From positions 205,587-269,586 of the forward strand of contig NZ_LMJL01000008.1 of NCBI RefSeq assembly GCF_001429295.1: a stretch of 64,000 nucleotides of DNA, written 5' to 3'. Position 1 is the stretch's first letter; every line of letters begins with the position of its first letter. Below the pieces are notes generated by a model. The model made no database searches, was not told the origin of the DNA, and was given only the letters and a program-made list of their open reading frames with translations. Below are positions 3,671 through 63,456 of the stretch, piece by piece. Origin of the DNA: Flavobacterium sp. Root935 (GTDB lineage Bacteria > Bacteroidota > Bacteroidia > Flavobacteriales > Flavobacteriaceae). The translations under genes were made by a program, and so were the position numbers.

Positions 3671-3886
3671 GAAGGTTCTGAGGTGCTGAGAGGCTAAGAT
3701 TTTAAGTTTTTTCATTTGGCTGCATCCATAGATTAAATTGAAAATCAGTTTTTAAAATTAAATGGATATTCGTTGTGTAGACGCACTGCGGTGCGTCTCT
3801 ACAGAATACATATCCAATACAAAACCTGTGAACCTTTGCAACTTACAACCTTAGAACCTTAGCACCTTAGAACCTTAGAACCTTAA
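3671..3886. repeat. word-built inverted repeat with a central palindrome
   Basis: This is the main content of the 435-base gap 3519-3953. The left arm (3671-3712) is made of words such as AAGGTTCTGAGGTGCTGAG; the right arm (3829-3886) is a run of CTTAGAAC and CTTAGCAC words that are its approximate reverse complement. Between them is a tight palindrome at 3776-3803 with ACGCAC-TGCG-GTGCGT at its centre and TGTAG/CTACA at its ends, which resembles a dispersed REP-type sequence. No gene is seen in the gap. Confidence 0.65.
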
Positions 3887-3888
3887 AA

Positions 3889-3920
3889 AAAAAGCCTATC
3901 TCTTTCGAAACAGGCTTTTT
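3889..3920 (-). terminator. terminator of the susC/susD operon
   Basis: A 9-bp stem AAAAAGCCT / AGGCTTTTT (3889-3897 / 3912-3920) with an inner TTTCGAAA. On the minus strand a run of nine T follows. It lies 34 bases past the stop of the SusD gene. Confidence 0.8.
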
Positions 3921-3953
3921 GAAAAAAAATAAAAAATAAACTAACACACAAAC

Positions 3954-5723
3954 TTAATTGTATCCTTGGTTTTGTTTGAATTCTTTAGTCACATCTATTG
4001 TTGACTGCGGAATTGGAAATATTCTTCTAAATGGTTCTGAAGCAGGTTTTGCAGTTCCCGCTAAATCAAATTTTCCAAAACGGATCATTTGTGGTCTTCT
4101 TTGCAATTCCCAGTACAATTCAAATCCAATTTCTTTATATAAAATAGTTTGATCTATTGATGTTAATGGTTTTCCAGTTACACCTCCGTATAAAGATTCT
4201 CTTTTTCTGCTTGTACGCAATTTATTAAGATCATCCATTGCCAATCCTGTGCTTCCTTTTCTAAAATAAGCTTCGGCTCTCATAATGTAGATTCCTCCTA
4301 AACGAAATAATGGAATATCAACATTACTATTTCCGTTTCCTCCTTCAGGATCAAATTCGTATTTGAAAATACGAGCCCCTTGATTGATTTCGTTTTGAGC
4401 AAAAACAGATTGTGCAGGATTTTTAAAAGTCAAAGAAGGTGTAAAATCCATTCTTGTTGTTGTGCTTTTTTCCATATATAATGGAGAAACTTTGATACGG
4501 TTTCCTGTCATTTCCAAAGATCCTGAAGCTAGCAATATTGGTCCGTATTGTGGTCCGTATTGAATACCTCTGTTAAAGTGGAACCAAGGTAAATTAGCAC
4601 TTTTTGGTACGATATCAGTTGCTGGAACACTTACATCTGTACCATCGTTCATAAACCATGTACCATCTCCATATTGGTATTTTTGCTGAAATCTCGGATC
4701 ATCGTGGTTTCCATCCCATGTTGCAAAAAACTCTGGAGTTGTGCAAGCCGCATTTGTTCCTCTGTTTGCTGCAGAAGTTCTTTGGTTACGTTCCATACAT
4801 ACATAAGCGAAACTGTTTGAACCGTTACGGATGTAATCTATCTTTTGAGAAATCGCAAAAATAAGCTCTTTCCCATTTTCATTATCTCTTGCAAAGTTTT
4901 TGAAATAATCGCTTTCTAAACTGTATTTTCCAGAATTGATCAATAATGAGGTATAGTAAATTACACGATCCATATCTGTTCCTGTACCAGTTGCTGCAGC
5001 TTCATTAAAATTAAAATTTGAAGCTGTATTGTAACGATCTTTAAAAACAGCACGATTCAAATACATTGTACTTAACAAACCATAAGCAGCTTCTTTTGTA
5101 AATCTTCCGTGGTGTGTTCGCTGCTCTCCCATACTTGCCAAATCTGGAATTAAAGCCTCAACATCGGCAATTAAAATATCGATTTGTGTATCAGCTTTTA
5201 AAATCTGTAAAGGCGCATTCGGATTCATTGGATCTCTGTATGGCGCTTGTCCGTACAAATCTAATGTTGTATATAAATAATACGCTAAAAGTCCTTTAGC
5301 TTCTGCTAAAAACAATTTTTTCTCTGAAATTGAACTTTCTTCAATTGACTGAATTGCTGTTAAAGAACGAGTAATTCCATTAGTAAGTTTGTTCCAGTTA
5401 TCAACCACGATTGCATTATCAGACTTCCATGTAAATTCGTGCATGTCTCTCCATTTTCCGCCATCTCCCCAGTCACTTCCTCTAGTTGGCAAAATTGCCT
5501 CGTCTGTAGTGTATTCTTGCAGCGAAAAAATTCCACCGTGATCTACAAAAGTTCCGTCTCCCAATCGGTCATAAGCAGCAGCAAGCGCCCCTGCAGGGTT
5601 TGAAGCATCTTCTCCTAAAACCTCATCTAAAACCACTTCGTCAAGATTTGTACAGCTTGCAAAAAGCCAGATAAAAGAAAATAATGCTAATGTTTTAATA
5701 TTAAAAATAGTATTTGTCTTCAT
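3954..5723 (-). CDS. SusD/RagB-like outer-membrane glycan-binding lipoprotein
   Basis: A 589-residue lipoprotein: signal peptide with lipobox FASC (Cys24) and a typical SusD layout, with an N-terminal helical TPR-rich half (ALAAAYDRLGDG..., ...AKGLLAYYLYTTLDLYGQAPY) and a C-terminal half containing GGIYIMRAEAYFRKG and the closing FELYWELQRRPQMIRFGKF, both strong family signatures. SusD proteins form a lid on the partner SusC and hold oligosaccharides at the cell surface. The gene starts 6 bases after the SusC stop, so the two are co-translated. Neighbouring chitinase and beta-glucanases suggest a chitin or beta-1,3-glucan ligand; this is inference. Confidence 0.95.
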   Translation of the reverse strand: MKTNTIFNIKTLALFSFIWLFASCTNLDEVVLDEVLGEDASNPAGALAAAYDRLGDGTFVDHGGIFSLQEYTTDEAILPTRGSDWGDGGKWRDMHEFTWKSDNAIVVDNWNKLTNGITRSLTAIQSIEESSISEKKLFLAEAKGLLAYYLYTTLDLYGQAPYRDPMNPNAPLQILKADTQIDILIADVEALIPDLASMGEQRTHHGRFTKEAAYGLLSTMYLNRAVFKDRYNTASNFNFNEAAATGTGTDMDRVIYYTSLLINSGKYSLESDYFKNFARDNENGKELIFAISQKIDYIRNGSNSFAYVCMERNQRTSAANRGTNAACTTPEFFATWDGNHDDPRFQQKYQYGDGTWFMNDGTDVSVPATDIVPKSANLPWFHFNRGIQYGPQYGPILLASGSLEMTGNRIKVSPLYMEKSTTTRMDFTPSLTFKNPAQSVFAQNEINQGARIFKYEFDPEGGNGNSNVDIPLFRLGGIYIMRAEAYFRKGSTGLAMDDLNKLRTSRKRESLYGGVTGKPLTSIDQTILYKEIGFELYWELQRRPQMIRFGKFDLAGTAKPASEPFRRIFPIPQSTIDVTKEFKQNQGYN

Positions 5724-5729
5724 AATAAA

Positions 5730-8700
5730 TTATAGTTTTAAAGTTGCTCCAAAACTGAATGTTCTTGAAGTTGGATAACTTGCGTAATCGATACCAATAG
5801 ATTGGTTTCCTCCGTTTGATTTTGGGCTGTTGATTAACGGATCGTAACCTGTATAATTTGTAATCGTAATTAAGTTCTGACCTGTTACATATAGTGTTAA
5901 GCCGTTGATCCAGTTCAATCCTTTTAAGTCAAAATTGTATCCAATACGAGCGGTATTCAATCTAATGAAATCAGACTTTTCTAAGAAAAGCGTTGACAAA
6001 ATTGGTGAGTTTGTAGGGTTCGCGCCTGACTCGTAATACCCTGTTGCTACGTTACGATCTGATGCTAAGTTGTTTATATTTAAAGCATTCAAACCTGTAT
6101 TATTTAATAAATAACCTCCAGTTTGTCCGATGATAGAGAATGAGAATGTAAAGTTTTTATATCTCATATCACTGTTTAATCCGTAATAGAAAGTTGGAAG
6201 CGCACCTTCAATAATAATTCTATCACTGTTATCAATTTTACCGTCTCCGTTTTGATCTTTAAAAATATTAGCTCCATTAGCATCAAAACCAGTATGTTCT
6301 AACAAGTAGAAAGATCCTGCTGCGTAACCACTTTTATAGATATTTGCATTTACACCAGATTGTCCAGGTCCTGAAATTGTTCCTGTTAAGATTTCTGAAA
6401 CTGGCAGATCTTGAATTTTATTATTCAACGTCGCACCGTTCATGTCAACATTCCAAGTAAAATCTTTAGTATTTACTATCTTAGAACCTAACATAATTTC
6501 AAAACCTTTATTGATAATTTTACCGTCAATATTAGTCCAGATTGTAGTCGTTGGACTTAAAGCTTGTGATGGTACATTCAAAATCGCATCAGTAGTGGTT
6601 TTGTTGAAATAATCTAATGTTCCGTAAAACTTATCGTTCCATAAATTGAAATCTAAACCTAAGTTATATTGCGTTACAACTTCCCATTTTAAATCAGGAT
6701 TTGGTGTTCTGTTAACAGAAACTCCATTAACTAAATTTAAATCATCGTATAAATAATATCCGTCAGCTCCAGATAAAGAATAACTCGCCTGTGTAATTTT
6801 ATTTTCAACTTCTTGATTTCCTGTTTGTCCCCAGCTTGCTCTTAGTTTTAAATTGTTTAATGATGTCGAATCTTTGAAGAAACTTTCATTAGCAATATTC
6901 CAGCCTAAGGCAAAAGATGGAAAATAACCGTATTTATTATTTTTACCAAAACGAGTAGATCCGTCTCCTCTCATAGAAGCTGTTAAAAGATATCTGTTGT
7001 CGAAACTATAGTTTAATCTTCCAAAATAAGACTGTAATTCATTTTCCTGAGCATAACCAGTCGTTCCAGATTGTGTGCCTTTAAAGCCAGGATTAATTGA
7101 AGGAGGTACACCTTCACCTTGATTCGAAATTCCGTCAATACTGAAAGCTGTTCCAGATCTTTCAAATTTTTGATATGAAAATCCACCTAAAGCTTCAATT
7201 TTATGTTTATCTAAATTGAGATTGTAAGTCAAATAATGTTCAACCAAAGAGTTTTTAGAATCTAGATTATTCTGAACATATTTTCCTTTTGGATTTAAGT
7301 CTGTTAAGTTTGGAAAAATAGTAGTATTTCTCTCTGACATTGAGCGGTCGATACCAAGGTTTAATTTATATTCTAATCCGTCAATGATTCTTAAAGAAGT
7401 TTCAAAATTCCCTAACACTCTCAAAGTACGCGTTTGATCGGTATAAATACTTAATAAATACGCTGGATTGTAGTGCGCATTCATATTAAAATTGGTATAA
7501 TTACCATTTGCATCAAAAACTGATCTCGTTGGATTTGCCATTAATGTGTGAACCAGCAATTGTCCATTAGAGCCTCCGTCATCACTTGTAGGAACGCCAT
7601 CGTCTTTAGTTTCGCTGGCAGTAAGATTAAATTTTAATTTTAAACGTTTTTTATCCAAAAACGACTCAGCAGCATTAATTCTTCCTGTCAGACGTTTAAA
7701 ATCGCTGTTTCTAATAATACCTTCTTGATCTAATTGCGATACAGATGCATAGTAATTTCCAGACTCTGTTTGTTTAGAAAATGCCAGCGAATTACTTTTT
7801 GTAACAGCTTGTCTAAAAATAACATCCTGCCAGTCTGTATTACCTCCGTGATCAAAAGCTTTGTCTTTAATAGCGTTTCTGTATTCATCAGCACTCAAAA
7901 CATCTAATTTGTTGGCTACAGTAGAAATTCCTAAAGACGAATCAAAAGTTAAAGTTCCATCTCCTTTTGCTCCTTTTTTAGTCGTTACTAAAACAACTCC
8001 ATTAGATCCTCTTGCTCCGTAAATGGCAGATGCAGATGCATCTTTTAAAACTGTAATAGATTCGATATCGCTATTATTCAAAAAGTTTAATGGATTTTTA
8101 GCTTGAGAACTACCAAAACCAACATTCGTTCCAGATGGGCTCACATCATCATTAGACAATGGAATTCCGTCAACAACAAACAAAGGCGTACTTCCACTTC
8201 TAATAGATCCAACACCTCTAATTGTTACATTTACTCCAGCTCCTGGCTCACCGCTTGTACTAACCACACGAACACCAGCAACTTTTCCTTGAATTAAATT
8301 ATCTGGAGAAATGCTTACACCTTGCTTAAAGTTTGAAGCTTCCAATTGTGTAACTGCTCCAGTAACGTCTTTTTTAGATTGTTTACCGTACCCTACAATT
8401 AAAACCTCATTTAATTCTGCAGTAGTTGGTTCTAACTGAATAGTCATAAAACCAGTTTGTGCTGTAACCGTTTTGGTTTTGTAACCAACGTAAGACACAT
8501 CTATAGTTTTTCCTTCTCCAACAGAAAGTTCAAATACTCCGTCAAAATCAGTTACAGTAGAGTTAGAAGTACTTGTTTCGATTACAGTTGCACCTGGAAT
8601 TGGCACTTTGTTCTCGTCTACGATTTTTCCTTTAACTTTAATTCTATCAACCGCTTTTGTATTTACCGTTTTTGGCGCAGCTTTTTTCTGTATTAAAACT

Positions 8701-9014: not shown

Positions 9015-9054
9015 GATTTAAGTAATTGTTTTTACGATGCTTAATTTATTAATG

Positions 9055-9074
9055 GCAGTTGTTCCCGCAACTGC
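9055..9074 (-). other. hairpin between FecR and SusC genes
   Basis: Perfect 7-bp stem GCAGTTG / CAACTGC (9055-9061 / 9068-9074) with a 6-base loop, in the gap between the FecR stop and the SusC start. On the minus strand it is preceded by A residues and not followed by a T-run, so it is not a classical terminator for that strand. It may stabilise or process the SusC message. Confidence 0.4.
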
Positions 9075-9084
9075 TTTTTTGTTT

Positions 9085-10008: not shown

Positions 10009-10092
10009 AAATACTTATTGTTATGAATAAGTACCAGAATCTCGAAATCGTACTATCGCCAAATATTATGAAAACATCAAGCGAAAGTTATT

Positions 10093-10617: not shown

Positions 10618-10880
10618 AAGGCAATTACAGACTGATTTGTATCGTAAAATAATAAAATCAAAAGCCAATGTTTTTTGCGTCAAGGTTATCTTTAAATTAA
10701 GAAATGAAAACTTTTGATGTATAAATACTACTTTTTTAAGGACGAAGTACTAATGATTTTGCGATTTCTTTTTCTTTAACTAACAAACAAATCAAAGACT
10801 ACCTTTAACTTAGTCTTTTTAAAAATGTAATTTTCTTTTGATGCGTCCCAATCAAATAGTATCAATTCCATTTTAGAATC

Positions 10881-11945: not shown

Positions 11946-11959
11946 TTTTTTTGTTTCAG

Positions 11960-12008
11960 GTTTCAAGTTTCAAGTTATTGCTGGACCGAGAAACTTGAAA
12001 CTTGAAAC
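11960..12008. repeat. perfect 17-bp inverted repeat
   Basis: GTTTCAAGTTTCAAGTT at 11960-11976 is exactly inverted at 11992-12008 around a 15-base loop. Each arm is a tandem of the word GTTTCAA. It may act as a transcription barrier after the PI-PLC-like gene, but no T-run follows. Confidence 0.7.
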
Positions 12009-12016
12009 AATAATAA

Positions 12017-12150
12017 TTTTAACCGCAAAGAGCGCAAGTTCTTTTTAAGATTACGTTATAAACGCGAAGTTCACAAAGCTTTGCGATCTTGTTTATTTTA
12101 GAAACTTTGCGCCCTTTGCGAAAAACCTTAGCGGTCTTTGCGGTTAAAAA
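12017..12150. repeat. inverted repeat of the ACCGCAAAG word family
   Basis: TTTTAACCGCAAAG at 12017-12030 is exactly inverted at 12137-12150. Further inward both sides carry GCGCAAG / CTTTGCG words in imperfect register. It fills most of the gap before the phosphoesterase gene and supplies the spurious N-terminal extension of that open frame. Confidence 0.65.
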
Positions 12151-12172
12151 AACTCAAAAGTTAAAAACAATT

Positions 12173-14104: not shown

Positions 14105-14128
14105 TTTATTGTAAGAGACGTTTTTTTT

Positions 14129-14316
14129 ACCGCAAAGAACGCAAAGGTTACGCAAAGTTCACAAAGTTCACAAAGTTCACAAAGGATTTTGAGTATAATT
14201 TTATAAATTAAAGTTCGCAAAGCATTATGGGATTAGCTTTGCGAACTTTTCATTTTATAAATTTAGCTTAAAAAAAAACTTAGCGTTCTTTGCGTAACCT
14301 TTGCGTTCTTTGCGGT
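14129..14316. repeat. nested inverted repeats, outer arms 29 bp perfect
   Basis: The 29 bases at 14129-14157 (ACCGCAAAG, AACGCAAAGG, TTACGCAAAG) are exactly inverted at 14288-14316. Inside is a second perfect 14-bp pair, 14210-14223 and 14236-14249 (AAAGTTCGCAAAGC). Between them is a tandem run of TTCACAAAG. This occupies most of the 311-base gap 14105-14415, which has no gene. Confidence 0.85.
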
Positions 14317-14325
14317 TAAAACAAA

Positions 14326-16041: not shown

Positions 16042-16122
16042 AATAATTGTTTTAATAGATTAATAAACTCGTAAACATGGGACGGTTATTTGAGTTGCAT
16101 TTTTTTATTTTTAGATTTCAGA

Positions 16123-16206
16123 CTTTAGATTTTAGATTTGATTTAAAATCTAATTTCGTAGAACTAACACTACCTAATTTATTATCTAAATCTAAAGCCT
16201 GAGATC
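16123..16206. repeat. imperfect inverted repeat of AGATTT words
   Basis: The stretch at about 16121-16148 (AGATTTCAGACTTTAGATTTTAGAT) is approximately inverted at 16182-16206 (ATCTAAATCTAAAGCCTGAGATC). It fills the gap between the GH64 stop and the GH18 start on the minus strand, where it could partly separate the two genes. Confidence 0.55.
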
Positions 16207-26368: not shown

Positions 26369-26458
26369 CGACTTCGCTCAGGATAACATCTAAAACCTAT
26401 TTACTGTCAGGCTGAGCGAAGTCGAAGTCCTCAGAACCTGAAACCTGAAACCTGAAAC
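26369..26458. repeat. inverted repeat plus CCTGAAA tandem
   Basis: CGACTTCGCTCAG at 26369-26381 is exactly inverted at 26412-26424. Just after it, CCTGAAA occurs three times in tandem (26437-26457). The remainder of the gap holds the sensor promoter and no gene. Confidence 0.7.
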
Positions 26459-28979: not shown

Positions 28980-29000
28980 ATTTTATTCTCATTTTTGTCA

Positions 29001-29092
29001 TTTCGACGGAGGAGAAATCTCCGTAAGAAGCTCCCCAAAGAAAGTCACCAAACTTTGTAGAGTCGCTTGTGAAGATTTCTCCTCCGTCGAAA
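29001..29092. repeat. perfect 20-bp inverted repeat
   Basis: TTTCGACGGAGGAGAAATCT at 29001-29020 is exactly inverted at 29073-29092. The arms extend imperfectly outward with TTTTGTCA / TAACAAAA. It lies between the convergent DUF4861 and LacI-type genes and may work as a two-way transcription barrier. Confidence 0.8.
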
Positions 29093-29122
29093 TAACAAAA
29101 TAGCGTATCACGCGTATTTAAA

Positions 29123-31472: not shown

Positions 31473-31578
31473 ATTTAAAATTCCAATTTTTGAAATACCA
31501 AATTCCAATTAAGAACTTAAAAATTAAACTAAATATTTATCATACTTTATCTTTCAAATTGAAATTTGGAATTTAAAC
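31471..31578. repeat. imperfect inverted repeat of AATTCCAA words
   Basis: TTTAAAATTCCAATTTTTGAAA-type words (31474-31519) are approximately inverted at 31550-31578 (TTTCAAATTGAAATTTGGAATTTAAAC). It occupies the gap between eda and the SDR gene, and thus sits inside a probable operon. Confidence 0.5.
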
Positions 31579-31603
31579 TATTGATTTTTTAAATAACTAA
31601 ATA

Positions 31604-32429: not shown

Positions 32430-32514
32430 CTGCAAGGTTTCTAAAACCTTGTGGGTTTAAATTAACATCTCTATAAACAAAAAACATACCTACAAGGTTT
32501 TGGAAACCTTGCAG
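32430..32514. repeat. 27-base inverted repeat, each arm itself palindromic
   Basis: The 27 bases at 32430-32456 match the inverse of 32488-32514 at 25 positions. Each arm contains its own AAGGTTT...AAACCTT hairpin, so the gap could fold as one long stem or two short ones. It separates the SDR gene and uxuA. Confidence 0.75.
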
Positions 32515-33728: not shown

Positions 33729-33918
33729 TTGCCACAAAGGCGCTGGGTTGCGATTTATTCTAAGCCACAGATTAAAAGAATTAAGGAGATTTTTTCACGC
33801 AGATTTGGCAGATTTAAGAAGATTATTTTTGAATAAATTAACTGCTTAAATCTGCTCAAATCTTTTTAAAATCTGTGTGAAACAAAAAACTTCGCATCTT
33901 AGCGCATTCGTGGCAAAC
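33729..33918. repeat. nested inverted repeats with two word families
   Basis: Outer arms, GCCACAAAGGCGCTGGGTTGCGA (33731-33753) and TTCGCATCTTAGCGCATTCGTGGC (33891-33914), match imperfectly. The inner arms are built of CGCAGATTT-type words (33795-33819 and 33846-33882) ending in TTCAC / GTGAA. No gene is seen in the 229-base gap before 33953. Confidence 0.65.
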
Positions 33919-35594: not shown

Positions 35595-35676
35595 TCTCGC
35601 AAAGTCGCTAAGACGCAAAGAGAAAATTTAAAAAAACTTAAAAAAGAAAACTTTGCGACTCTGCGACTTTGCGAGA
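35595..35676. repeat. inverted repeat of CGCAAAG words
   Basis: TCTCGCAAAGTCGCTAAGAC plus GCAAAG (35595-35620) matches the inverse of 35651-35676 at 23 of 26 positions. It sits right before the hybrid sensor gene. Confidence 0.75.
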
Positions 35677-38700: not shown

Positions 38701-39794
38701 ACATCGATAAAATTTTTGATTTGTTTTTTGAAATTCCGATGCACAATCAAGTTCAAAAAAACTACAATAAAGGAACTGGAATTGGACTTTCGATTGTAAA
38801 AAACATTGTAAAACTGCACAAAGGAAACATTGATGTTAAGAACAAACCAACAGGCGGTGTTATTTTTAAGGTTACACTTCCGCTTGGGCGAAACCATCTT
38901 TTAGACAGCGAAATTATTCCCGATTTTAAAATTAGTGATGATATTGCACAATATACCGCACAATTAGAACCATCGGAAGTAATCGAAAACGAAGACATCG
39001 AAGATTTAATTGTAAACGACGAAAAACAAACGATTTTAATTGTTGAAGATCACAAGGTTTTGAGAAAGTTCATGAAAAACCTGCTCAAAAAAGATTATAA
39101 TATAATTGAGGCCGAAAACGGAAAAATTGCTTTTGAAAAAGCACTAAAATTTGTTCCAAATTTGATTATCAGTGATGTTATTATGCCAGAAATGGTTGGA
39201 ACAGAACTTTGTTCGAAAATAAAAGAAAACCTTAAAACCAGTCATATTCCTGTTATTTTATTGACTTCGAGATCTTCATTGGTTTATAAATTTGAAGGAT
39301 TGGAAAGCGGTGCCGATGATTATATCAGCAAACCATTCAATTTAATGGAATTCAGACTTCGCGTTAAAAACATTTTAAACACTACTGAACGTTTAAAAAT
39401 CAAATTTTCAAGCGAAGACAGTTTTATTCCATCAGAAATCACAGTTTCTTCTTTGGATGAAGAATTATTGAAAAAAGCATTCAAGATTGTAGAAGAAAAC
39501 ATTTCAAACGAACAATTTGACATTCCGTTCTTCTGTTCAGAATTAGGTGTCAGCCGTACCATGTTATTTCTAAAAATCAAAGCTTGGACCAATTGCACAC
39601 CAAACGAATTTATTCACGAAATCAGATTAAAACGCGCCGCTCAATTATTAGAACAAAACAAACTAAATGTTTCAGAAGTGAGCTATAAAGTCGGTTTTAA
39701 CAATCCGAAATACTTCAGCAAATGCTTTCAAAAAAAATACGGAGAAACGCCGTCGCAATACGCAGACAAATTTTATAAAAAGTGTGAGATGTAA
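35706..39794 (+). CDS. hybrid two-component system regulator (HTCS)
   Basis: A 1362-residue sensor-regulator in one chain. Order: signal peptide (about 1-20); about a dozen periplasmic two-component propeller repeats (to about 680, each with WxGT and GL motifs); Y_Y_Y domain (about 690-780); membrane span (about 788-810); HisKA with phospho-accepting histidine in NISHEFRTPLTLILGP (about 838); HATPase (about 950-1065, NLISNAFRYTPKGG, GTGIGLSIVKNIV); receiver domain (about 1108-1220, ISDVIMPEM); AraC-type HTH (about 1265-1362, FNNPKYFSKCFQKKYGETPSQYADKF). HTCS proteins bind oligosaccharides in the periplasm and switch on the adjacent susC/susD genes. Here it should control the operon beginning near 40042, on the same strand. 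Confidence 0.95.
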   Translation: MKFKIALLFIVFISGNLFSQNKYRLKNISTTDGLSQSSVIAIHQDKFGQMWFGTRDGLNKYDGSRFTIFRNDTNDKSSISNNDILAIEEDNSGKIWVGTYNGLNCYNPVLNKFTRYLHTKANHTISNNAVWSIKEIGSEMWFGTSKGLTIYNKKSGLFTSVFHSDDDASTLPSNNILSILKTKKGEIWIGTTKGLCHLISRKNGKFQFKNYPLNNFDLLNVQSVIEDKNGNLWVGTKNKGLLKFDQKQKSYVSFLDNEKFREINTDIRSLVIDNQGSLWIGAYDGIYILGLDKSLQKINNSNNSNGIDKVKSLFKDKKGSIWIGCYYKGVNLWDVSNVNFSNYNQNSKKIPMSFDVVSSIIADKNQNIYFGTEGGGITIYNKSTETTSYINSKTGQTNKNDIKSMCLSDDRILWIGTFSKGLSAYNTITKRIQDNRIASDLTDLLKETGVYSLKTEGSILWIGTFGKGLIRYNTTDKTFQLIGNDNTKSVFLTNNIIRTILVDKHNFLWVGTQNGLNRIPLRNFNPKQYAIQHFFYDHSSLSGDDILTLFQDSQNKIWVGTKAKGLHYFDGKKFNRINLRIGNTIITSIHSILEDDDKNLWISTNQGIIKYNTNQKNIVIYDQKDGLASNEFNDNSALKLSSNQFYFGSPSGATYFDASKISLNQYAPQVLITDLKIKNETINPGDSAEILEKSIGFTQTITLDYDKANFSINFAIPNYIRSKNNQYSYRLTGLENNWTTTKNSEANFAIQNPGTYTFEVRGANNDGIWNKTPTTLTVIVNPAPWRSIWAFLLYGIIIGLGLYGLIWIMKSKARLKQKLELEYLESKRVEENNRAKLDFFTNISHEFRTPLTLILGPLQQILADYNGTNEMYKKLLVIEGSANHLLSLINRLMDFRKLENDQATLESANGNIVKFTREIFLSFIEYAKDGGYEYTFETDDEEILVYFDRYKLERVFYNLISNAFRYTPKGGSINIKINHDQENLFIAVEDSGVGISEEHIDKIFDLFFEIPMHNQVQKNYNKGTGIGLSIVKNIVKLHKGNIDVKNKPTGGVIFKVTLPLGRNHLLDSEIIPDFKISDDIAQYTAQLEPSEVIENEDIEDLIVNDEKQTILIVEDHKVLRKFMKNLLKKDYNIIEAENGKIAFEKALKFVPNLIISDVIMPEMVGTELCSKIKENLKTSHIPVILLTSRSSLVYKFEGLESGADDYISKPFNLMEFRLRVKNILNTTERLKIKFSSEDSFIPSEITVSSLDEELLKKAFKIVEENISNEQFDIPFFCSELGVSRTMLFLKIKAWTNCTPNEFIHEIRLKRAAQLLEQNKLNVSEVSYKVGFNNPKYFSKCFQKKYGETPSQYADKFYKKCEM

Positions 39795-39804
39795 AGTGTG
39801 AAAT

Positions 39805-39901
39805 GTGAAAAGTGAAATGTTAGATGTGAAAATTTGAATTGCTAAATGTGACATCTTTTACTTCTTACTTTTCTTTTTACATCTAACATTTCACTTTTCA
39901 C
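39805..39901. repeat. perfect 23-bp inverted repeat of GTGAAATG words
   Basis: The 23 bases at 39805-39827 are exactly inverted at 39879-39901. Beyond the perfect core, both arms continue with more TGTGAAA / TTTCACA words (about 39782-39836 and 39865-39952), so the arms consist of one word repeated with changes. It follows the HTCS stop by 10 bases. Confidence 0.85.
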
Positions 39902-39980
39902 TTTTCACATTTCACATTCTCACATTTCACATTCCCACATTTTCACACCTTACTTAAACAATCCGCATTTTTAAAGGCTT

Positions 39981-40016
39981 AAAAAAGGGTATCTGTATTT
40001 TTAGATACCCTTTTTT
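39981..40016 (+). terminator. strong intrinsic terminator after the HTCS gene
   Basis: A perfect 14-bp stem AAAAAAGGGTATCT / AGATACCCTTTTTT (39981-39994 / 40003-40016) with an 8-base loop. It separates the regulator gene from the SusC operon. Confidence 0.9.
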
Positions 40017-44713: not shown

Positions 44714-44936
44714 ACGCAGATGAAACGGATTTGCTATCGCAAAAACGCTGATTTTGCACGGATTTTTTCTCTCGCAGATCTCACAGATTTGGCTGATTTT
44801 TACTTCACGCAGATTAAATTGCTTTTTAATTTAATTTGCTCAATCTGTAAAATCTGCGGAAACAATTATTCGTGGCGTAATAAAAAAATCCGTATAAATC
44901 CGCGTTTTCGCGATAGCGAATCTGTCAAATCCGCGT
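44714..44936. repeat. long nested inverted repeat upstream of GH88
   Basis: About 55 bases at 44714-44768 (with ACGGATTTGCTATCGCAAAA at the core) match the inverse of 44882-44936 with only scattered differences. A second pair of CGCAGATT / AATCTG words is nested inside (44806-44818 and 44841-44860). It fills the 256-base gap between SusD and GH88 and makes the spurious N-terminal extension of the latter frame. Confidence 0.75.
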
Positions 44937-44965: not shown

Positions 44966-46159
44966 ATGAAGAATGTCAGTTTCATTTCTTTAATTCTTGG
45001 GTTTGCATCGTTGGTAACAGCGTGCAAGCCCGGAATTAATCCTCAAGCAAAAACAACCTCAACAAGTACACAAAAATTGGAAACGCGATACAAAATGCTG
45101 CTCGATTATCCAGTAGATTCTATGTCGATGCCGAGAAGTATGAATGTAAAATCTCTTGAAATTCGCAAAGTGCCGTCGAGAGATTGGACAAGCGGTTTTT
45201 TTGCTGGAAATCTTTGGCAATTGTACCGACTTACAGGCGATTCAAAATATAAAGAACAAGCTCAAAAATGGACTCGTTTCAGCAAAAAAGAAAGTGTCAA
45301 CAGTAATTCGCATGACGTAGGTTTTAAAGTGTTTTGCAGTTTTGGAGAAGCTCTAAAAGTGGAAAACAAAAAAGAATACGAAGAGGTAATTATTAAAGGC
45401 GCTGAAACTTTGTGTACAAGGTTCAATCCAAAAGTGGGTTCGATTCGTTCTTGGGATTTCAACAAGGAAATTTGGGATTATCCTGTAATCATCGACAATA
45501 TGATGAATCTGGAATTGCTTTTTGAAGCTTCAAAATTATCTGGAAACAATAAATACCGTGATGTCGCTATCAAACATGCCAATACAACCTTAAAAAACCA
45601 GTTTAGAGCAGATAACTCTTGTTATCACGTTATCGATTATAATCCAAATACAGGCGAAGTGAGAAAGAAAACTACGCTTCAAGGTTATAATGACGATTCG
45701 GTTTGGGCACGTGGGCAAGCTTGGGCAGTATACGGATTTACGATGTCCTATCGATATACAAAAGATCCTGCCTATTTAAAACAAGCTGAAGCGACAGCAA
45801 AGTTTTTTATGACAAATAAAAACCTGCCAGAAGATGGAATTCCGTATTGGGATTTTAAAGATCCGAGTATTCCAAATGCAGCTCGTGATGTTTCTGCAGC
45901 AATGGTAATGGCATCAGCATTATATGAGCTGTATGGTTATACTAAAAATGATACTTATTTGGCTTTCGCTGATAAAATGATGGCTTCGGTACAAACCGAT
46001 AAATACATTTTAGACACCACAATTAAAGCGCCTTTTCTTTTTGACCACAGTACAGGAAACTGGCCTAAACACGATGAAATTGATGAACCAATAATCTACG
46101 CCGATTATTATTTTCTAGAAGCATTAATAAAGGTACAAAGGCTCAAAGGTTCAAAGTAA
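44966..46159 (+). CDS. GH88 unsaturated glucuronyl hydrolase (lipoprotein)
   Basis: A 397-residue enzyme from the ATG at 44966, which gives a lipoprotein signal (TAC, Cys20); the longer frame from 44720 runs through a repeat. Seen: the (alpha/alpha)6 barrel motifs DWTSGFFAGNLWQLYRLTG, D117 in NSHDVGF and D177 in VIIDNMMNLELL (equivalents of the two catalytic aspartates of UGL), and SVWARGQAWAVYGF. GH88 removes the 4,5-unsaturated glucuronate left at non-reducing ends by polysaccharide lyases. Its presence implies a lyase in the pathway. Its last residues (KVQRLKGSK) are coded by the arm of an inverted repeat. Confidence 0.9.
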   Translation: MKNVSFISLILGFASLVTACKPGINPQAKTTSTSTQKLETRYKMLLDYPVDSMSMPRSMNVKSLEIRKVPSRDWTSGFFAGNLWQLYRLTGDSKYKEQAQKWTRFSKKESVNSNSHDVGFKVFCSFGEALKVENKKEYEEVIIKGAETLCTRFNPKVGSIRSWDFNKEIWDYPVIIDNMMNLELLFEASKLSGNNKYRDVAIKHANTTLKNQFRADNSCYHVIDYNPNTGEVRKKTTLQGYNDDSVWARGQAWAVYGFTMSYRYTKDPAYLKQAEATAKFFMTNKNLPEDGIPYWDFKDPSIPNAARDVSAAMVMASALYELYGYTKNDTYLAFADKMMASVQTDKYILDTTIKAPFLFDHSTGNWPKHDEIDEPIIYADYYFLEALIKVQRLKGSK

Positions 46160-46190
46160 CAAAGGTTTTGAATCTTTGAATCTTTGAGCC
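46140..46190. repeat. inverted repeat overlapping the GH88 stop
   Basis: GGCTCAAAGGTTCAAAG (46140-46156) is inverted at 46174-46190 with one mismatch. The left arm is the 3' end of the GH88 coding sequence; the TAA stop follows at 46157. Related AACCTTTG words follow to 46230. Confidence 0.75.
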
Positions 46191-46231
46191 AGAAAAGCTT
46201 TAAACCTTTGTAACTATGAACCTTTGTAACT

Positions 46232-48649: not shown

Positions 48650-48752
48650 GAGATGCTAAGGCACTAAGATTCTAAGTTTTTTTTAGTCTAGTTGTCATCC
48701 TGACAAAAAAATAGTAAAAAAACTTCGTGCCTTAGCGTCTTCGTGGCAAAAC
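48650..48752. repeat. imperfect inverted repeat of CTAAGGCAC words
   Basis: AGATGCTAAGGCACTAAGATTC (48651-48672) is imperfectly inverted at about 48721-48752 (AACTTCGTGCCTTAGCGTCTTCGTGGC). It forms the gap between the two GH2 genes. Confidence 0.55.
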
Positions 48753-51332: not shown

Positions 51333-51782
51333 CTAATTGCCTATCTGCCAAAACAATTCATTAAAAGGTTCATTAACAAACTCTTTTGTTAGTGAATATC
51401 CATAGGGATAAATACCATCTTCTAAACCATTTTCTACTCTCTTCATAGTTTTTTGCGCAGGAAAACAAACCGTTTGATTTGGAAGTTTAACTGAGAAATT
51501 TATTTCTCCTTTAGGATCAGTGTCATCTGTAATCAATATAGAATTTGGAACATTCCGTATTAAAGTTTTTGCTACATAACTGGAGACAGCAAAAATAATA
51601 CTTCCCAAATTTTCACTTAGTCTCCCGTTAGGTTTTGGTTTATTGCTAATAAGATTATTTTGAAAAAATCTATCAATTTCAATTAAACTATTAATAGAAT
51701 AATCTAAATTGTAATTATCAGCTTTAAAGGCATTCACTACCCAAGCAGCATATTCATTGATGTCTTCAGCTAAATTTGCCAT
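51333..51782 (-). CDS. orphan hypothetical protein
   Basis: A 149-residue soluble protein with no signal peptide. It starts MANLAEDINEYAAWVVNAFK; a helical N-terminal half with LSENLGSIIFAVSSYVAKTLI and a C-terminal half with FSVKLPNQTVCFPAQKTMKRVENGLEDGIYPYGY. I do not recognise the family. It stands alone on the minus strand, bracketed by two hairpins with the same 14-bp stem, as though inserted as a small cassette. Confidence 0.65.
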   Translation of the reverse strand: MANLAEDINEYAAWVVNAFKADNYNLDYSINSLIEIDRFFQNNLISNKPKPNGRLSENLGSIIFAVSSYVAKTLIRNVPNSILITDDTDPKGEINFSVKLPNQTVCFPAQKTMKRVENGLEDGIYPYGYSLTKEFVNEPFNELFWQIGN

Positions 51783-51907
51783 AAAAAATTTCTCTTAAAT
51801 TTATTGCAAAAATATATTTCACAGAATAATATTAAATCCTTGAAAAGTTTTAAAACTAACACTTTAAGCTTAGATTTTCCATCAAAATCTAAAAATAATA
51901 AATATTA

Positions 51908-51941: not shown

Positions 51942-51944
51942 GTT

Positions 51945-54149: not shown

Positions 54150-54156
54150 AATCTAA

Positions 54157-55772: not shown

Positions 55773-55815
55773 TCAGTCTATCTTTAAATTAGCAAAATCA
55801 CTTTAGGTATTCTAA

Positions 55816-55850: not shown

Positions 55851-55899
55851 AATTCAAACATTGAGCTTATTTAGAATAATTACAGTTTCTTATAAAAAT

Positions 55900-56047
55900 T
55901 AACCGCAAAGAACGCTAAGTTTTTTTGATATAGATTGTTTTAAAAAAACGCTAAGTCCGCAAAGCTTCATGGATTCCTGCTTTGTGAACTTTGTATTTTA
56001 TAAACCTCTCTACTTATTAAACCTTTGCGAACTTTGCGTTAAAAAAA
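55900..56047. repeat. weak inverted repeat of the AACCGCAAAG family
   Basis: TTAACCGCAAAGAACGCTAAG (55899-55919) and a second ACGCTAAGTCCGCAAAG (55948-55964) face TTTGTGAACTTTG (55980-55992) and CCTTTGCGAACTTTGCGTTAA (56022-56042). The 351-base gap 55773-56123 holds this and the candidate promoter, and no gene. Confidence 0.5.
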
Positions 56048-56123
56048 CAGAAAAATAGATTTATACATTTTTTTAATTTTAGGAATTTTCAAAATTGTAT
56101 TTTTACGACACTAAGTCAAAATT

Positions 56124-57266: not shown

Positions 57267-57375
57267 GAAAGTATTTTTTTTGTCTCGCAGATCTTGCAGA
57301 TTAAGCAGATTTTAATCTTTTATTCAATCCATAAAAAACTTTGCACCTTTGCACCTTTGAGCCTCTGCAACTAAA

Positions 57376-59092: not shown

Positions 59093-59162
59093 ATAAATAT
59101 TCGCCAACAAAATTTACGTGACGTCTTTTGAACAAGTGATTATAAAAATACAAATTAAAAAT

Positions 59163-59939: not shown

Positions 59940-60040
59940 TTAAAAGAGGAATTGGTTAATTTTACGTATTGCCCTTCTTGAAAAGCAATTTTAATTTTGG
60001 AAAACTAAAAATATCATTTAATATCCCAAAAAAGACCATT

Positions 60041-60790
60041 ATGAAAACATTTTTTTACAAGACATTCATTATTTCAAGCCTTTCTATATTTCTAAGCTGT
60101 AATTCTAAAAATGAAACTACAAAAGCGACAACTGCAGAAGAAACCAAAAAAGATTCAGCATTTGTAAATGGTTCACCTTGTGATATTAAATTATCTGCCA
60201 TACATTTTACAAAAGCAGTTAACGGTGCAGATACTTTAATTAAAACTGAAAAAGACGAAAAAATTATATTTAAAGCAGGCGAAAAATCAGATTACTTTTC
60301 AGATCCTGATGGAAAATTATCCAATAACACTGCTCCAATGCTTTTGTCTAAAGTCGATAACACGAAACCTTTTACACTTACAGCAAAAGTAACTCCAGAA
60401 TTTACCGAAAAAGGATTATATAATGCTGGTGTTTTATACATTTATGTAAATGATAGTTTCTACCAAAAATTTTGTTTTGAACAAGACGAAAGAGGAAATC
60501 ACAGAGTTGTAACGGTACGCACAATGGGTACTTCTGATGATAACAATCATGATGTTGTAAAACAGCCGTCTATTTACATGAAAATTTCTTCGGATACCAA
60601 AACGGTTGCCAGCTATTATTCTCTTGATAAGAAAAACTGGCAGATGGTTCGATTGTATAAAAATAATTATCCAAAAGAAATCTGGGCTGGAATTAGTACG
60701 CAGTGCCCCGTAGATAAAGGAACTCAAAGCACATTTGATCAAATTAACTTGGAAGAAAAAAGTGTATCTGATTTTCGTTTAGGGATTTAA
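60041..60790 (+). CDS. DUF1349-domain lipoprotein
   Basis: A 249-residue lipoprotein from the ATG at 60041, with lipobox FLSC (Cys20); the longer frame from 59969 lacks support. The mature part (about 45-249) fits DUF1349, a concanavalin-like sandwich: FTLTAKVTPEFTEKGLYNAGVLYIYVNDSFYQKFCFEQDERGNHRVVTVRT...SWYYSLDKKNWQMVRL-type strands and AGISTQCPVDKGTQSTFDQI. Similar domains bind or cut carbohydrates, but many are uncharacterised. A single gene, divergent from the LuxR regulator. Confidence 0.8.
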   Translation: MKTFFYKTFIISSLSIFLSCNSKNETTKATTAEETKKDSAFVNGSPCDIKLSAIHFTKAVNGADTLIKTEKDEKIIFKAGEKSDYFSDPDGKLSNNTAPMLLSKVDNTKPFTLTAKVTPEFTEKGLYNAGVLYIYVNDSFYQKFCFEQDERGNHRVVTVRTMGTSDDNNHDVVKQPSIYMKISSDTKTVASYYSLDKKNWQMVRLYKNNYPKEIWAGISTQCPVDKGTQSTFDQINLEEKSVSDFRLGI

Positions 60791-60924
60791 TTTCAATTTT
60801 TACGATACCTTTTTTATTGTTTAGGTAATCATTTTTTAAAATGATTGTATGATTTATAGGACTAAGTTTTGTATTTTTATATTTATCAAAAATAAAATAT
60901 TACCTAACTTTAATAAAAAACTAC

Positions 60925-61257
60925 ATGGGAAAATTTGTAATTACTAAAAGAACCAACGGTGAATTTCAATTTAATTTGAAAGCTGGAAATGGCCAGACAA
61001 TTTTGAGCAGCGAAGGTTACTCTACAAAAGCAGGTGCTGAAAACGGAATCGAATCTGTAAAAACAAACTCGCAGGATGATTCTCGTTACAACAAAGAAGA
61101 ATCCAAAAGTGGTAAACCGTATTTTACATTAAAAGCTGGAAACGGACAGATAATTGGTTCTAGCGAAATGTATGAAAGTACTTCTGCAAGAGATAATGGA
61201 ATTGCATCTGTAAAATCAAATGCTCCAGACGCAGTAATTGACGATCAAACAGTATAA
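60925..61257 (+). CDS. YegP-like protein, two DUF1508 repeats
   Basis: A 110-residue protein with two copies of the DUF1508 motif: GEFQFNLKAGNGQTILSSEGY...GIESVKTNS (about 11-49) and PYFTLKAGNGQIIGSSEMYES...GIASVKSNA (about 63-102). Small cytoplasmic proteins of this kind occur widely; no reaction is known. It ends at a strong terminator. Confidence 0.92.
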   Translation: MGKFVITKRTNGEFQFNLKAGNGQTILSSEGYSTKAGAENGIESVKTNSQDDSRYNKEESKSGKPYFTLKAGNGQIIGSSEMYESTSARDNGIASVKSNAPDAVIDDQTV

Positions 61258-61278
61258 TATAAACTTTTTCAAACATAA

Positions 61279-61304
61279 AAAAAGCGAGGCATGCCTCGCT
61301 TTTT
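61279..61304. terminator. bidirectional terminator
   Basis: A near-perfect palindrome AAAAAGCGAGGC-AT-GCCTCGCTTTTT between the convergent YegP-like and LutC genes. Confidence 0.9.
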
Positions 61305-61324
61305 CTTTATCTCTATATTTTATT

Positions 61325-61912
61325 TTAATCCAATAAAAACACAATCAATCCTCTGGCTCCATGAGCACCTAGAACCAAAGACTGCTCGATATCTGCGGTT
61401 TTTGACGGACCTGCGATAAAAGTTCCGAAACCGTATTCCATGTTTCCAATTCTATTATACGCTTGCTGCATAGTTGGTAAAATGTCTTTTTTGTGAACCA
61501 CAATTGCTAAATACTGCGCAATAAAAGGTGCCACGCGTTGTCCTAAAATATCATCTGTTACCCAAAGTCCGCTGTTTTCTGCTACGCCAAAATGTGCTTT
61601 TATAACTGTTAATTCAACATTCTGCAGTGAATGCGGATCGACCGTTTTCCAGTCTAAAGAAGCAATTTCAGAAAGTTCTGGAAGCGTTGTAATGAGCCTT
61701 TTTTCTAAGTTATAATTCGATTTGATGTAATTGATGATTTCATTATAATCAGCAACTTCAACTAGGTCGCCACCAATTCCTTTTAAAACTGTTTTATACG
61801 TTTCCAGCACATCAAATTGTTCTGAACCTAAAAGACTTAAATCTGGCAGATCAGCAACCAAATCAGGCTGATTCAGTTTTATTCTATTTAAAATTTCTGC
61901 TTTACTACTCAT
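61325..61912 (-). CDS. lutC: lactate utilization protein C (LUD domain)
   Basis: A 195-residue LUD-domain protein, subunit of the LutABC complex that oxidises L-lactate to pyruvate. Seen: the C-terminal FIAGPSKTADIEQSLVLGAHGARGLIVFLLD, a very conserved family end, and VELTVIKAHFGVAENSGLWVTD. It overlaps the end of the LutB gene by 8 bases. Confidence 0.93.
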   Translation of the reverse strand: MSSKAEILNRIKLNQPDLVADLPDLSLLGSEQFDVLETYKTVLKGIGGDLVEVADYNEIINYIKSNYNLEKRLITTLPELSEIASLDWKTVDPHSLQNVELTVIKAHFGVAENSGLWVTDDILGQRVAPFIAQYLAIVVHKKDILPTMQQAYNRIGNMEYGFGTFIAGPSKTADIEQSLVLGAHGARGLIVFLLD

Positions 61913-63305
61913 TCTTTTTATCTTTAGATTCTCTTGAATTTTTCTTGTACCATTCTCTAAACGATTCTTCTGGAACGTCTGGCATTTCGCGTTGATCGTA
62001 CCATTTATTCATCTTATTATTGACCATTCCAGGAATATTTTTCATTACAAATCGGCCTGATTTTCCAGCAATATTAAAGATTGTCGGATTGGCCAAAACT
62101 TTTGCCATCGTTTTCATAGCAACGGTTTTTGCTGTTGGCGTATAACCGTCTTTCACCAAAACCTGACGCCATTTGTACAATTGATCGTGAATATCAATCT
62201 TAACAGGACAAACGTTTGTACAAGAGCCGCAAAGCGTACTTGCAAATGGCAAATCGGCATTTTTGCTCATGTCTAAATTGGGTGCTAAAATAGAACCAAT
62301 TGGACCTGCAACTGCATTGTGATAACTATGTCCGCCGCTTCGTCTGTAAACTGGGCAGGTATTCATACAAGCGCCGCAGCGAATACATTTCAAAGAATTT
62401 CTAAAATCTTCTCTGCCTAACTGCTTGCTTCTTCCGTTATCTACAATTACAATGTGCATTTCCTGACCGTCTCTTGGCTTTTTGAAATGACTAGAAAAAG
62501 TTGTTATAGGCTGACCCGTTGCGCTTCTTGCCAATAATCTCAGAAAAACACCTAAATGTTCTCTTTTCGGAACTAGTTTTTCAAATCCCATACACGCGAT
62601 GTGGACGTCTGCAAGATGCGCGCCCATATCCGCATTTCCTTCATTCGTACAAACTACAAATTCACCCGTTTCTGCGACAGCAAAATTTACTCCAGTTAGC
62701 GCCACTTTTCTAGTCAGGAAAGTATTTCTTAAACTATGACGCGCTGATTCTGTTAAATACTGCGGATTGAAATTTCCTTTTTCGGTACCTAAATGTTCGT
62801 GAAAAGTTTCGCTTACATCTTCTTTCTTTAAGTGAATCGCCGGAAGTACAATGTGGCTCGGCGGTTCTTTTCGAAGCTGGACGATATATTCACCTAAATC
62901 AGAATCGATAACTTCAATTCCTTTTTCGGCTAAATAATCATTTAAATGGCATTCTTCTGTAAGCATCGATTTGGATTTCACCATTTGCTTTACATCATGT
63001 TTTGCCATGATCGAATGCACTATTTCGTTATGCTCTTTGGCATCTGCTGCCCAATGCACAATTATTCCGTTTCGCTGAGCATTAGCTTCAAATTCAACTA
63101 AATAGTCATGAATATTGGAGAGTACATTATTTTTGATTTTGGAAGCGGTTTCCCGAAGCAGTTCCCAATCGGCAATTTGATGAGCAGATTTATCACGTTT
63201 CGCACGCACAAACCAAAGTGTTTCATCATGCCAATTGACACGCTCTACATCTTTGTTGAATTTGGTTGCGGCTTCGCTGTGCGGTATTATTTTTTCTGAT
63301 GACAT
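61905..63305 (-). CDS. lutB: lactate utilization iron-sulfur protein B
   Basis: A 466-residue protein: LUD domain (about 65-300, with VNFAVAETGEFVVCTNEGNAD) and two 4Fe-4S motifs, C307-x2-C310-x2-C313-x3-C317 (CIRCGACMNTC) and C359-x2-C362-x3-C366 (CGSCTNVC). It is the electron-carrying subunit of the lactate-oxidising complex. Co-transcribed with lutC; the gap to lutA upstream (171 bases) holds an inverted repeat. Confidence 0.94.
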   Translation of the reverse strand: MSSEKIIPHSEAATKFNKDVERVNWHDETLWFVRAKRDKSAHQIADWELLRETASKIKNNVLSNIHDYLVEFEANAQRNGIIVHWAADAKEHNEIVHSIMAKHDVKQMVKSKSMLTEECHLNDYLAEKGIEVIDSDLGEYIVQLRKEPPSHIVLPAIHLKKEDVSETFHEHLGTEKGNFNPQYLTESARHSLRNTFLTRKVALTGVNFAVAETGEFVVCTNEGNADMGAHLADVHIACMGFEKLVPKREHLGVFLRLLARSATGQPITTFSSHFKKPRDGQEMHIVIVDNGRSKQLGREDFRNSLKCIRCGACMNTCPVYRRSGGHSYHNAVAGPIGSILAPNLDMSKNADLPFASTLCGSCTNVCPVKIDIHDQLYKWRQVLVKDGYTPTAKTVAMKTMAKVLANPTIFNIAGKSGRFVMKNIPGMVNNKMNKWYDQREMPDVPEESFREWYKKNSRESKDKKNE

Positions 63306-63356
63306 TTTTAATTATTTAAAAGTCAATTTTGAAATCTTTATTATTGGTATGTTCTA

Positions 63357-63456
63357 TTTAACCGCCAAGTTCGCAAGGTTTTACGCAAGGTTCACAAAGC
63401 TAATTTTTAATCTTAGCGTGCTTTGCGTATTTTTCTTTGCGAACTTTGCGGTTAAA
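63357..63456. repeat. inverted repeat of the AACCGC-AAG family inside the lut genes
   Basis: TTTAACCGCCAAGTTCGCAAGG and following bases (63357-63390) match the inverse of 63420-63456 (...CTTTGCGAACTTTGCGGTTAAA) with few differences. It separates lutA and lutB and resembles the arms at 12017 and 14129. Confidence 0.7.

Follow-up and report, generated by a model that had tools for sequence, protein, structure and literature searches.

Intergenic foldback repeats built from family-specific word arrays in Flavobacterium sp. Root935, and inversion of their loops between two strains

Several described systems resemble parts of what is reported here. REP, BIME and REPIN elements with their RAYTs are, like the present repeats, dispersed intergenic palindromes that are patchy between species; as described, REP dimers and REPINs likewise often consist of two facing units, possibly forming one long stem-loop, and some families are inserted in other palindromes (PMC3733652, PMC6006769). 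Stem-loop sequence families from systematic scans of bacterial genomes are also intergenic and stem-loop-forming, a likeness drawn from their description only (PMC2267715, PMC1590033), and the Beggiatoaceae carry short tandem words such as TAACTGA in their gaps (PMC4679880). In chloroplasts, minute inversions are described at hairpins such as that of trnH-psbA, where inverted repeats of 18 bp or more enclose a 25-27 bp loop whose orientation flips within species (PMC2903610). Template-switch mutations are described as creating and maintaining RNA hairpins and predict both loop inversion and multi-base rewriting of one arm from the opposite arm; such patterns are reported in rRNA genes, with loops mostly of 4 bases and some of 7-8 (PMC8794818).

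Here, we analyzed a window of 64,000 nucleotides from Flavobacterium sp. Root935, together with the adjoining 200 kb (264 kb in all). A first-pass annotation of the window had claimed that many gaps between genes hold two facing arms made of short tandem words, some word sets recurring at several sites. Both claims were borne out. In 14/14 named gaps, each taken with 20 nt on either side, the best inverted local match exceeded all 200 dinucleotide-preserving shuffles of that stretch (z 5.0 to 18.9), so that shuffles of equal composition never gave such matched arms (0/200 per gap). Across the 264 kb, 29 inverted repeats reached a score of at least 16, 27 of them intergenic, as against 0.2 per round in five rounds of shuffling 138 gaps. 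The foldbacks are thus far above chance. Inverted repeats with a score of at least 14 were also present in the adjoining 200 kb and in stretches of 13/13 relatives sampled, a count in which ordinary hairpins may be included. Rfam covariance models gave no match in the window at gathering score. The matching of arms within a site is real, but its perfection had been overstated, since arms are often imperfect.

The first foldback (3671..3886) is made of CTAAG/CCTTAG words with a hairpin nested around GACGCACTGCGGTGCGTC; beside it lies a terminator-like hairpin (3886-3920) of the minus-strand gene 3954-5723. GTTTCAA words form the foldback at 11951..12010, whose right arm alone is one 7-base word shorter in the same-species genome G230. 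Words of the AACCGCAAAG type recur near 12017, 14124, 55900 and 63357, in foldbacks at 12017..12149, 14124..14321, 55900..56040 (a predicted fold in a divergent gap, below the score-14 list and outside the shuffle set) and 63357..63456 (where G230 differs in the left arm and loop). A weaker foldback of CAGACTTTAGAT words occupies 16114..16206, and arms of GACTTCGCTCAG and CTGAGCGAAGTC face each other at 26369..26424. At 28993..29100 the arms consist of GTCATTTCGACGGAGGAGAAATC, and the G230 gap holds an unrelated short palindrome instead. The gene uxuA is preceded by a foldback with CTGCAAGGTTT-AAACCTTGTAGG arms (32430..32514) and followed by an outer foldback of GCCACNAAG-type words (33731..33914), in which CACAGATTA and CGCAGATTT words are nested and an inner inverted repeat spans 33801-33863. 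Further foldbacks are made of TCTCGCAAAGTCGC words (35595..35676); GTGAAATG words (39783..39924), with a left arm starting inside the 3'-terminal codons of a gene that ends at 39794; CGCTATCGC and CGGATTT words (44728..44922), with CGCAGATT words, which recur at 33795 and 44806, in the loop; CAAAGGTT words (46144..46226), with a left arm that takes in the stop codon of a gene that ends at 46159; and, weakly (score 12), GCTAAGGCACTAAG words (48651..48740).

Across sister species, one and the same gap may hold different families or be empty, and empty and filled orthologous gaps were both observed; for example, an insert of the 39783..39924 type is absent from the same gap in G006, G015, G008 and G054. 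In the gap after uxuA, all 28 genomes (28/28) with GCCAC arms on both sides hold motifs of another family inside. Mobility is read from this patchy presence only, because neither a transposase nor an excision event was observed.

Comparison of this genome (G000) with G230 shows how the arms change. Arm substitutions amount to 2.6 and 2.8%, as against 2.5% in flanks and 2.5% in coding sequence. Among the 927 arm base pairs compared, 44 of the 46 changed pairs were altered on one arm only, with pairing lost in 31 of these, gained in 11 and left as it was in 2; the double changes left one pair paired and one unpaired. This count excludes compact hairpins, 21 gapped pairs and five foldbacks (two at edges, two with an aligned identity of 0.65 and one over length). 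When arms were re-paired between genomes, 522.8 of 572 positions matched, compared with 535 for own arms (p=0.0002), and complementarity was 0.913 for arms of different genomes vs 0.935 for own arms. Because re-pairing costs so few matches, the family consensus accounts for most of the arm match, and the arms probably match since each family keeps a single word pattern in both. The 4-mers at the centre were identical in 12/22 own pairs vs 6.0/22 re-paired ones (p=0.002).

Of the 34 gaps containing an inverted repeat, three (at 32457-32487, 14224-14234 and one held-out site) have a foldback whose loop stands in situ in opposite orientation in the two strains, whereas the same search in 68 gaps without inverted repeats and 400 coding blocks found none; 45 of 147 gaps were set aside as not comparable. 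The claim that loops flip rests on these three inversions in two public assemblies rather than reads, that of G000 being in 11 contigs. The innermost loop of the 14124 foldback (14224..14234) is the exact reverse complement of its counterpart in G230, and the loop of the 32430 foldback (32457..32487) has an identity with G230 of 0.90 when inverted and 0.48 when read forward. A possible fourth inversion, asymmetric, was seen by eye at 191415 in the combined 264 kb. A/T-only runs in the scan, at 51360, 33833 and 84655 (5-7 bases) and at 51825 (13 bases), were taken as noise. Of 20 other loops compared with the orientations in G000 and G230, three were G000-like, three G230-like and 14 neither (p<=0.05, a single-test value across 20 tests with 200 shuffles per loop), and in the other species where it could be called, the orientation of the 32457 loop did not follow kinship. 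In addition, the right arm at 14124..14321 appears rewritten to the left-arm form: in gap sequences compared by eye at this one site, it has both a deletion and a substitution in which it agrees with this genome's left arm, and the other right-arm form is common to G230 and two outgroups (G006, G049).

We consider it probable that these elements are dispersed foldback repeats consisting of two inverted copies of a family-specific word array (words of about 7-10 bases), with arms matched probably by a kept word pattern and with occasional template switching at replication likely flipping a loop or rewriting an arm. Replication would now and then switch template between the arms, which would leave a flipped loop or a rewritten arm. 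We infer template switches rather than recombination between arms for the flips and the rewrite; recombination would give the same loop flip. The families may spread by a transposition-like step independent of any RAYT, the loops of older foldbacks could be tolerated landing sites, and the word skeleton might be held by a selected interaction such as protection of mRNA 3' ends or a binding factor.

That RNA-level selection alone explains the repeats, as hairpins in 3' UTRs protecting mRNA ends or setting expression within operons and kept paired by compensatory selection, seems unlikely. In its favor, both CTGCAAGGTTT-AAACCTTGTAGG arms of the element before uxuA were found in 22/56 genomes by a search confined to 190 nt before the gene, and over these 22 genomes the arms are kept (0.91-0.92 identity) while the loops decay (0.68; shuffled loops 0.60; uxuA DNA 0.87). 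Moreover, the stems lack U-tracts, like plastid 3' inverted repeats, which are described as stabilizing rather than terminating. However, selection on the RNA alone does not predict that a loop inverts in place or that several bases of one arm are rewritten together, and 31 of the single-arm changes between strains break pairs. As for gene ends, the 264 kb contain 21 tandem, 7 convergent and 3 divergent cases vs 21.5, 5.0 and 4.5 expected by length, and in the 21 tandem cases the upstream stop lies at a median of 17 nt and the next start at 51 nt (p=0.13). A tie to gene ends therefore did not reach significance in this sample, and a strong 3'-end bias was not retained.

Continual copying or correction of the arms at every site, which would keep them matched while words differ between sites, is very unlikely. 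The first-pass annotation had proposed that arms are copied or corrected against each other, for instance by template switching, and had named independent drift of the arms in a sister strain as an observation that would speak against it; such drift is what G230 shows. Continuous correction fails because arm divergence is at the background level and almost all changed pairs (44/46) differ on a single side. What stands of the proposal is copying between arms in episodes, as evidenced by the three loop flips and the one arm rewrite. Variable letters in a family with a GCCAC consensus bear on both sides. Taking as a pair a plus match followed by a minus match within about 300 bp, dropping three pairs (in G015, G008 and G049) with letters identical to listed pairs as presumed orthologues, and choosing one partner for arms with two possible ones (G040, G042, G052), we found among the matches listed that 87/165 variable letters agree between arms, no better than for re-paired arms (about 81 on average, obtained by adding up the computed expectation; p=0.17), whereas 7/33 pairs, again among the matches listed, are identical at all five variable letters vs 1.4 expected. 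GCCAC arms thus mostly drift freely, with whole-arm copying now and then. Free letters likewise match in 97/370 cases vs 111 at random in 74 genome elements, with no excess, while those of ACCAC-GAG arms in viral contigs match in 252/380 vs 176.5 at random. It follows that matching arms need not imply continuous correction.

It is highly improbable that the repeats are REP/REPIN-type elements moved by RAYTs (Y1_Tnp) that the genome encodes. One of its two Y1_Tnp genes does lie in the window (458-961), beside a palindrome cluster of its own (1-417), and the paired palindromic arms resemble REP dimers; the cluster, however, differs in sequence from the foldbacks. Further, G054 has 24 GCCAC matches and no Y1_Tnp match, on which RAYT mobilization of the GCCAC family was rejected, and 0-1 GCCAC matches were counted in each of seven genomes that carry at least three Y1_Tnp. 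The correlation of GCCAC copy number with Y1_Tnp number (rho 0.43) falls to 0.22 (p=0.09) with genome size held.

Although some foldbacks begin at most 20 nt from a stop codon, the idea of ordinary intrinsic terminators is extremely improbable and was rejected on U-tract counts, which agree with the earlier impression that most sites lack a T-run and are not simple terminators: a U-tract on the strand of the gene ending there was found in 3/31 long foldbacks (9/31 on either strand) vs 5/5 compact hairpins, and canonical terminators adjoin some foldbacks (e.g., 39981-40016).

The GCCAC pattern extends beyond the genus. The GCCACNAAGNCACNAAGNCACNAAG pattern, a skeleton of 20 positions that is conserved with every fourth base free, occurs in at least 118 stretches, 74/118 with an inverted partner, and the 80 listed record titles span about 16 phyla, mostly as metagenome bins. 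By crude ORF calls, 7/74 of the genome loci with genes called on both sides are in a divergent context, and 18 more of the 118 loci lie within a called ORF. The pattern is also found in predicted phage contigs. Two word families there depart from free drift, which speaks against the main reading: GCCAC-AAG arms avoid pairing at the free positions, and ACCAC-GAG arms match at them. The mismatch survived grouping by homologous flanks, but as a general rule it failed in two other viral word families and in genomes, and it is retained as a side observation only. Clustering by free letters chained nearly everything together and was discarded, and wobble asymmetry at CAC/CGC letters was uninformative because the transcribed strand was not fixed. 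Six exact 15-base strings of the pattern or its CGC variant were absent from the open-access literature, the body of papers covered, and no description was met in titles, abstract openings and available passages. We tentatively raise the possibility, itself doubtful, that the GCCAC-N-AAG-N-CAC-N-AAG foldback is an undescribed class of mobile or regulatory element common to bacteria of about 16 phyla and to their phages, namely a ladder hairpin with a fixed 3-base/3-base skeleton alternating with free bases at every fourth position and a putative recognizing factor, of which phage copies would keep the free positions mismatched on purpose and other hosts would flip or re-perfect the hairpin by template switching. 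If it is one class, a conserved and widespread noncoding sequence built on a strict 4-base rhythm is still without a name.

The first-pass annotation knew of no described family that explains these repeats. This holds for the word families, which were nowhere found described in the source passages available, and does not hold for dispersed palindromic repeats, hairpin-loop inversions or hairpin upkeep by template switching, all of which are described. As in REPINs, predicted folds place two inverted units in one stem-loop. Unlike REP/REPIN units as described, which are single and of 20-40 bp, the foldback arms here are word arrays with loops that flip; the GCCAC consensus lacks a GTAG or CGTC tag (judged by eye for the GCCACNAAG consensus at the unit end), its copies exist without a Y1_Tnp match, as in G054, and GTAG does stand at the inner ends of CTGCAAGG...CCTTGTAGG arms. 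The Beggiatoaceae TAACTGA repeats are direct, whereas the arms here face each other (PMC4679880). As in plastid minute inversions, the loop is inverted within a species and the arms are retained, at three sites between G000 and G230; the trnH-psbA case, however, concerns one plastid locus (PMC2903610), and the present one many unrelated word families on a bacterial chromosome. A polarized multi-base arm change equal to the complement of the other arm, as expected of a template switch, was found at 14124 only. In contrast to the hairpins for which template switching has been described (PMC8794818), the loops that flip here between strains of one species are intergenic and 11-31 bases long, and most arm changes are single-arm drift. 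This offers a bacterial system where hairpin template switching could be followed between strains, with loop orientation as a readable mark at several sites.

The window is part of contig C6 in a draft assembly of 5.08 Mb. Its gene content, together with matches to the GCCAC foldback pattern (see below) in named Flavobacterium records, suggests a Flavobacterium. In all 14 gaps for which the first-pass annotation had listed facing arms, the inverted match exceeded every one of 200 shuffles of the same gap, and these arms are thus real. The joined 264 kb stretch (the window plus the adjoining 200 kb) contains 29 inverted repeats at a score of ≥16, 27 of them intergenic, compared with 0.2 per shuffle round, so that shuffled gaps do not give as many long matched arms. 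Predicted folds of these foldbacks likewise contain long stems. Ten proteins near foldbacks were scanned, including uxuA, two GH2 enzymes, a GH18 enzyme, a phospholipase and a short-chain dehydrogenase. The remark that most foldbacks lack a T-run was borne out: only 3 of 31 long foldbacks have a U-tract on the strand of the gene ending there (9 of 31 on either strand). By comparison, all five compact hairpins carry a U-tract, which indicates that ordinary terminators are present in this genome besides the foldbacks. At 39783-39794 and 46144-46162, foldback arms reach the final codons of the genes upstream, and the stop codon therefore forms part of a repeat word.

A total of 188 inverted repeats, pooled from stretches of 14 genomes (score ≥14, loop ≥6, arm ≥16), group into recurring families, whose names rest on word reading because automatic clustering chained 104 of them into one group. 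Orthologous gaps in sister species hold different families. For example, this genome and G049 carry GTGAAATG-type words in the gap that follows 39794. G057 has CTGCAAGGTTT arms there and G052 one half of such arms, and no such insert was found in G006, G015, G008 or G054. Compared with the conspecific strain G230, the inner element of the gap after uxuA differs, as does the whole content of gap 28980-29122. Foldback families also nest. A regular-expression search placed arms of the GCCAC family (GCCAC-N-AAG-N-CAC-N-AAG, a fixed skeleton with every fourth base free) on both sides of the gap after uxuA in 28 of 56 genomes. All 28 have motifs from one or more other families between these arms, a count of motif presence rather than of folds, which were predicted for some of these gaps.

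Several further gaps show other arrangements. Gap 57267-57375 holds apparent half arms of two families that pair poorly (CGCAGAT words on the left, CTTTGCACC words on the right), and has one 8-base word fewer in G230. The AT-rich AAATTCCAA words at 31473-31603 are extended in G230 by 58 bases, mostly of the same words and on the left side only. In G079, the gap orthologous to 3519-3953 contains a nested GACGCACTGCTGTGCGTC hairpin block tandemly repeated several times, an expansion absent in four other strains shown. In distant relatives (such as L099, L096 and L100), the gap upstream of uxuA carries a longer element, CCCCGATAG..AGTGGAAATCCTTTTGTG ... CACAAAAGATTG..ACGGATAGCGGGA, placed inside the loop of, or beside, a CTGCAAGG foldback.

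The arms had been proposed to be continually copied or corrected against each other. Comparison with G230, labelled as the same species, does not support this (21 gapped pairs were set aside). The two arms show 2.6% and 2.8% substitutions, compared with 5.2% for loops and 2.5% each for flanks and coding sequence, and arms of orthologous gaps thus drift independently at the rate of their surroundings. Among 927 compared arm pairs there were 44 one-sided changes (31 breaking a pair, 11 making one, 2 neither) and two two-sided changes, one still paired and one unpaired. The arms are therefore not under continuous correction. At the 32430 element (32430-32514, upstream of uxuA), arms show 0.91-0.92 identity across 22 genomes, compared with 0.68 for loops (0.60 when shuffled) and 0.87 for uxuA. 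Arm complementarity is 0.935 with the own partner and 0.913 with the arm of another genome, and the arm match is mostly explained by a family consensus; the own-site excess is small (535 vs 522.8 of 572 cells, p=0.0002, uncorrected for kinship).

Copying between arms nevertheless stands as an occasional event, seen in three loop inversions and one arm rewrite. A scan of 102 comparable gaps against G230, with 45 further gaps left out, detected three inverted segments of ≥11 bases (inverted identity 0.90-1.00, forward 0.45-0.48): 32457-32487, 14224-14234 and a site 32 kb outside the window, the last from data fetched after the first flip had been noticed. Each of them lies in one of the 34 gaps that contain an inverted repeat, and no such segment was detected in the 68 gaps without one or in 400 coding blocks. 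The joined stretch shows a fourth inversion, with unequal arms, at position 191415. Three of the 31 bases of the 32457 loop differ from its reverse complement, so that the flip is not a mere misjoin of identical sequence. The orientation of this loop does not track kinship, being opposite in this genome and its conspecific G230, with G091 like the former and G079 like the latter; in 14 of the 20 other loops, divergence is too great for an orientation call. At 14124-14321, the right arm reads GCGTAAACCTTAGCG in G230 and the outgroups G006 and G049, and GCGTAACCTTTGCG in this genome, where both the deletion and the substitution match its own left arm; in G230 the left arm likewise agrees with the right. 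Loop flips together with arm rewrites are the marks expected from template switching between arms (PMC8794818); loops would also be flipped by recombination between arms.

Copies of the 17-base GCCAC pattern GCCRCNAAGNCRCNAAG number 0 to 49 per genome in the genus; 36 of 61 genomes have it, and its reversed control matched in none of the 61. Across the phylum, 68 of 296 genomes contain the pattern, and single matches there are at control level (control 0 or 1 in most genomes, 25 in one). The latter genome, G519, probably carries an unrelated repeat. Multi-copy genomes from other families include G614 (54), G485 (28, with a strong strand bias of 2 forward and 26 reverse), G592 (25) and G511 (20). 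Within the genus, arm pairs agree at 87/165 of the five variable letters, not above random (p=0.17), and 7 of 33 pairs are identical at all five vs 1.4 expected (p=0.00025). A stricter 25-base pattern matched at least 118 stretches in a genome collection; 80 titles among the matches listed come almost entirely from metagenome bins and cover about 16 names at phylum level, the only isolates among these matches being Flavobacterium and Desulfonema. In the 118 stretches listed, a partner within 300 nt (≥15 of 20 skeleton letters) was inverted in 74 and direct in 6. Inverted partner arms mismatch at 73% of free letters and about 8% of skeleton letters, the latter figure being depressed by the 15-of-20 cut, but the scores are bimodal, with one peak at 19-20. 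Free-letter GC tracks locus GC (rho 0.30; partner arms 0.44), in the found arms only at letters before AAG (0.33; after AAG 0.06, p=0.52). This GC pattern fits in part what drift of the free letters within each host, with a retained skeleton, would produce.

Predicted viral contigs also contain the 25-base pattern, in 72 stretches, and several of these contigs carry many copies. Eight proteins checked from three such stretches included members of tape-measure, tail-assembly, head-maturation and glycosyltransferase families, and two had no match; in L293, one foldback lies immediately upstream of a tape-measure gene. Free positions of GCCAC-AAG arms in the viral contigs (L231-L302) avoid Watson-Crick pairing (47/345 vs 105 by re-pairing; 69 distinct elements), and this holds with a single element from each homologous group (about 27 vs 72 of 235). 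Genome copies are near random after grouping. Such avoidance is not a feature of two related word families, as viral ACCAC-GAG arms match above random at free positions (252/380 vs 176.5) and ACCAC-AAG arms are neutral (95/230 vs 84.7).

The GCCAC family does not require a RAYT. A RAYT-like Y1_Tnp gene (458-961) is present in the window with its own palindrome cluster, ATGTTCC-TAAC-GGAACAT adjoining CTACCGAT, at 1-417; region 1-961 resembles the REP-and-RAYT arrangement and is unlike the word foldbacks.
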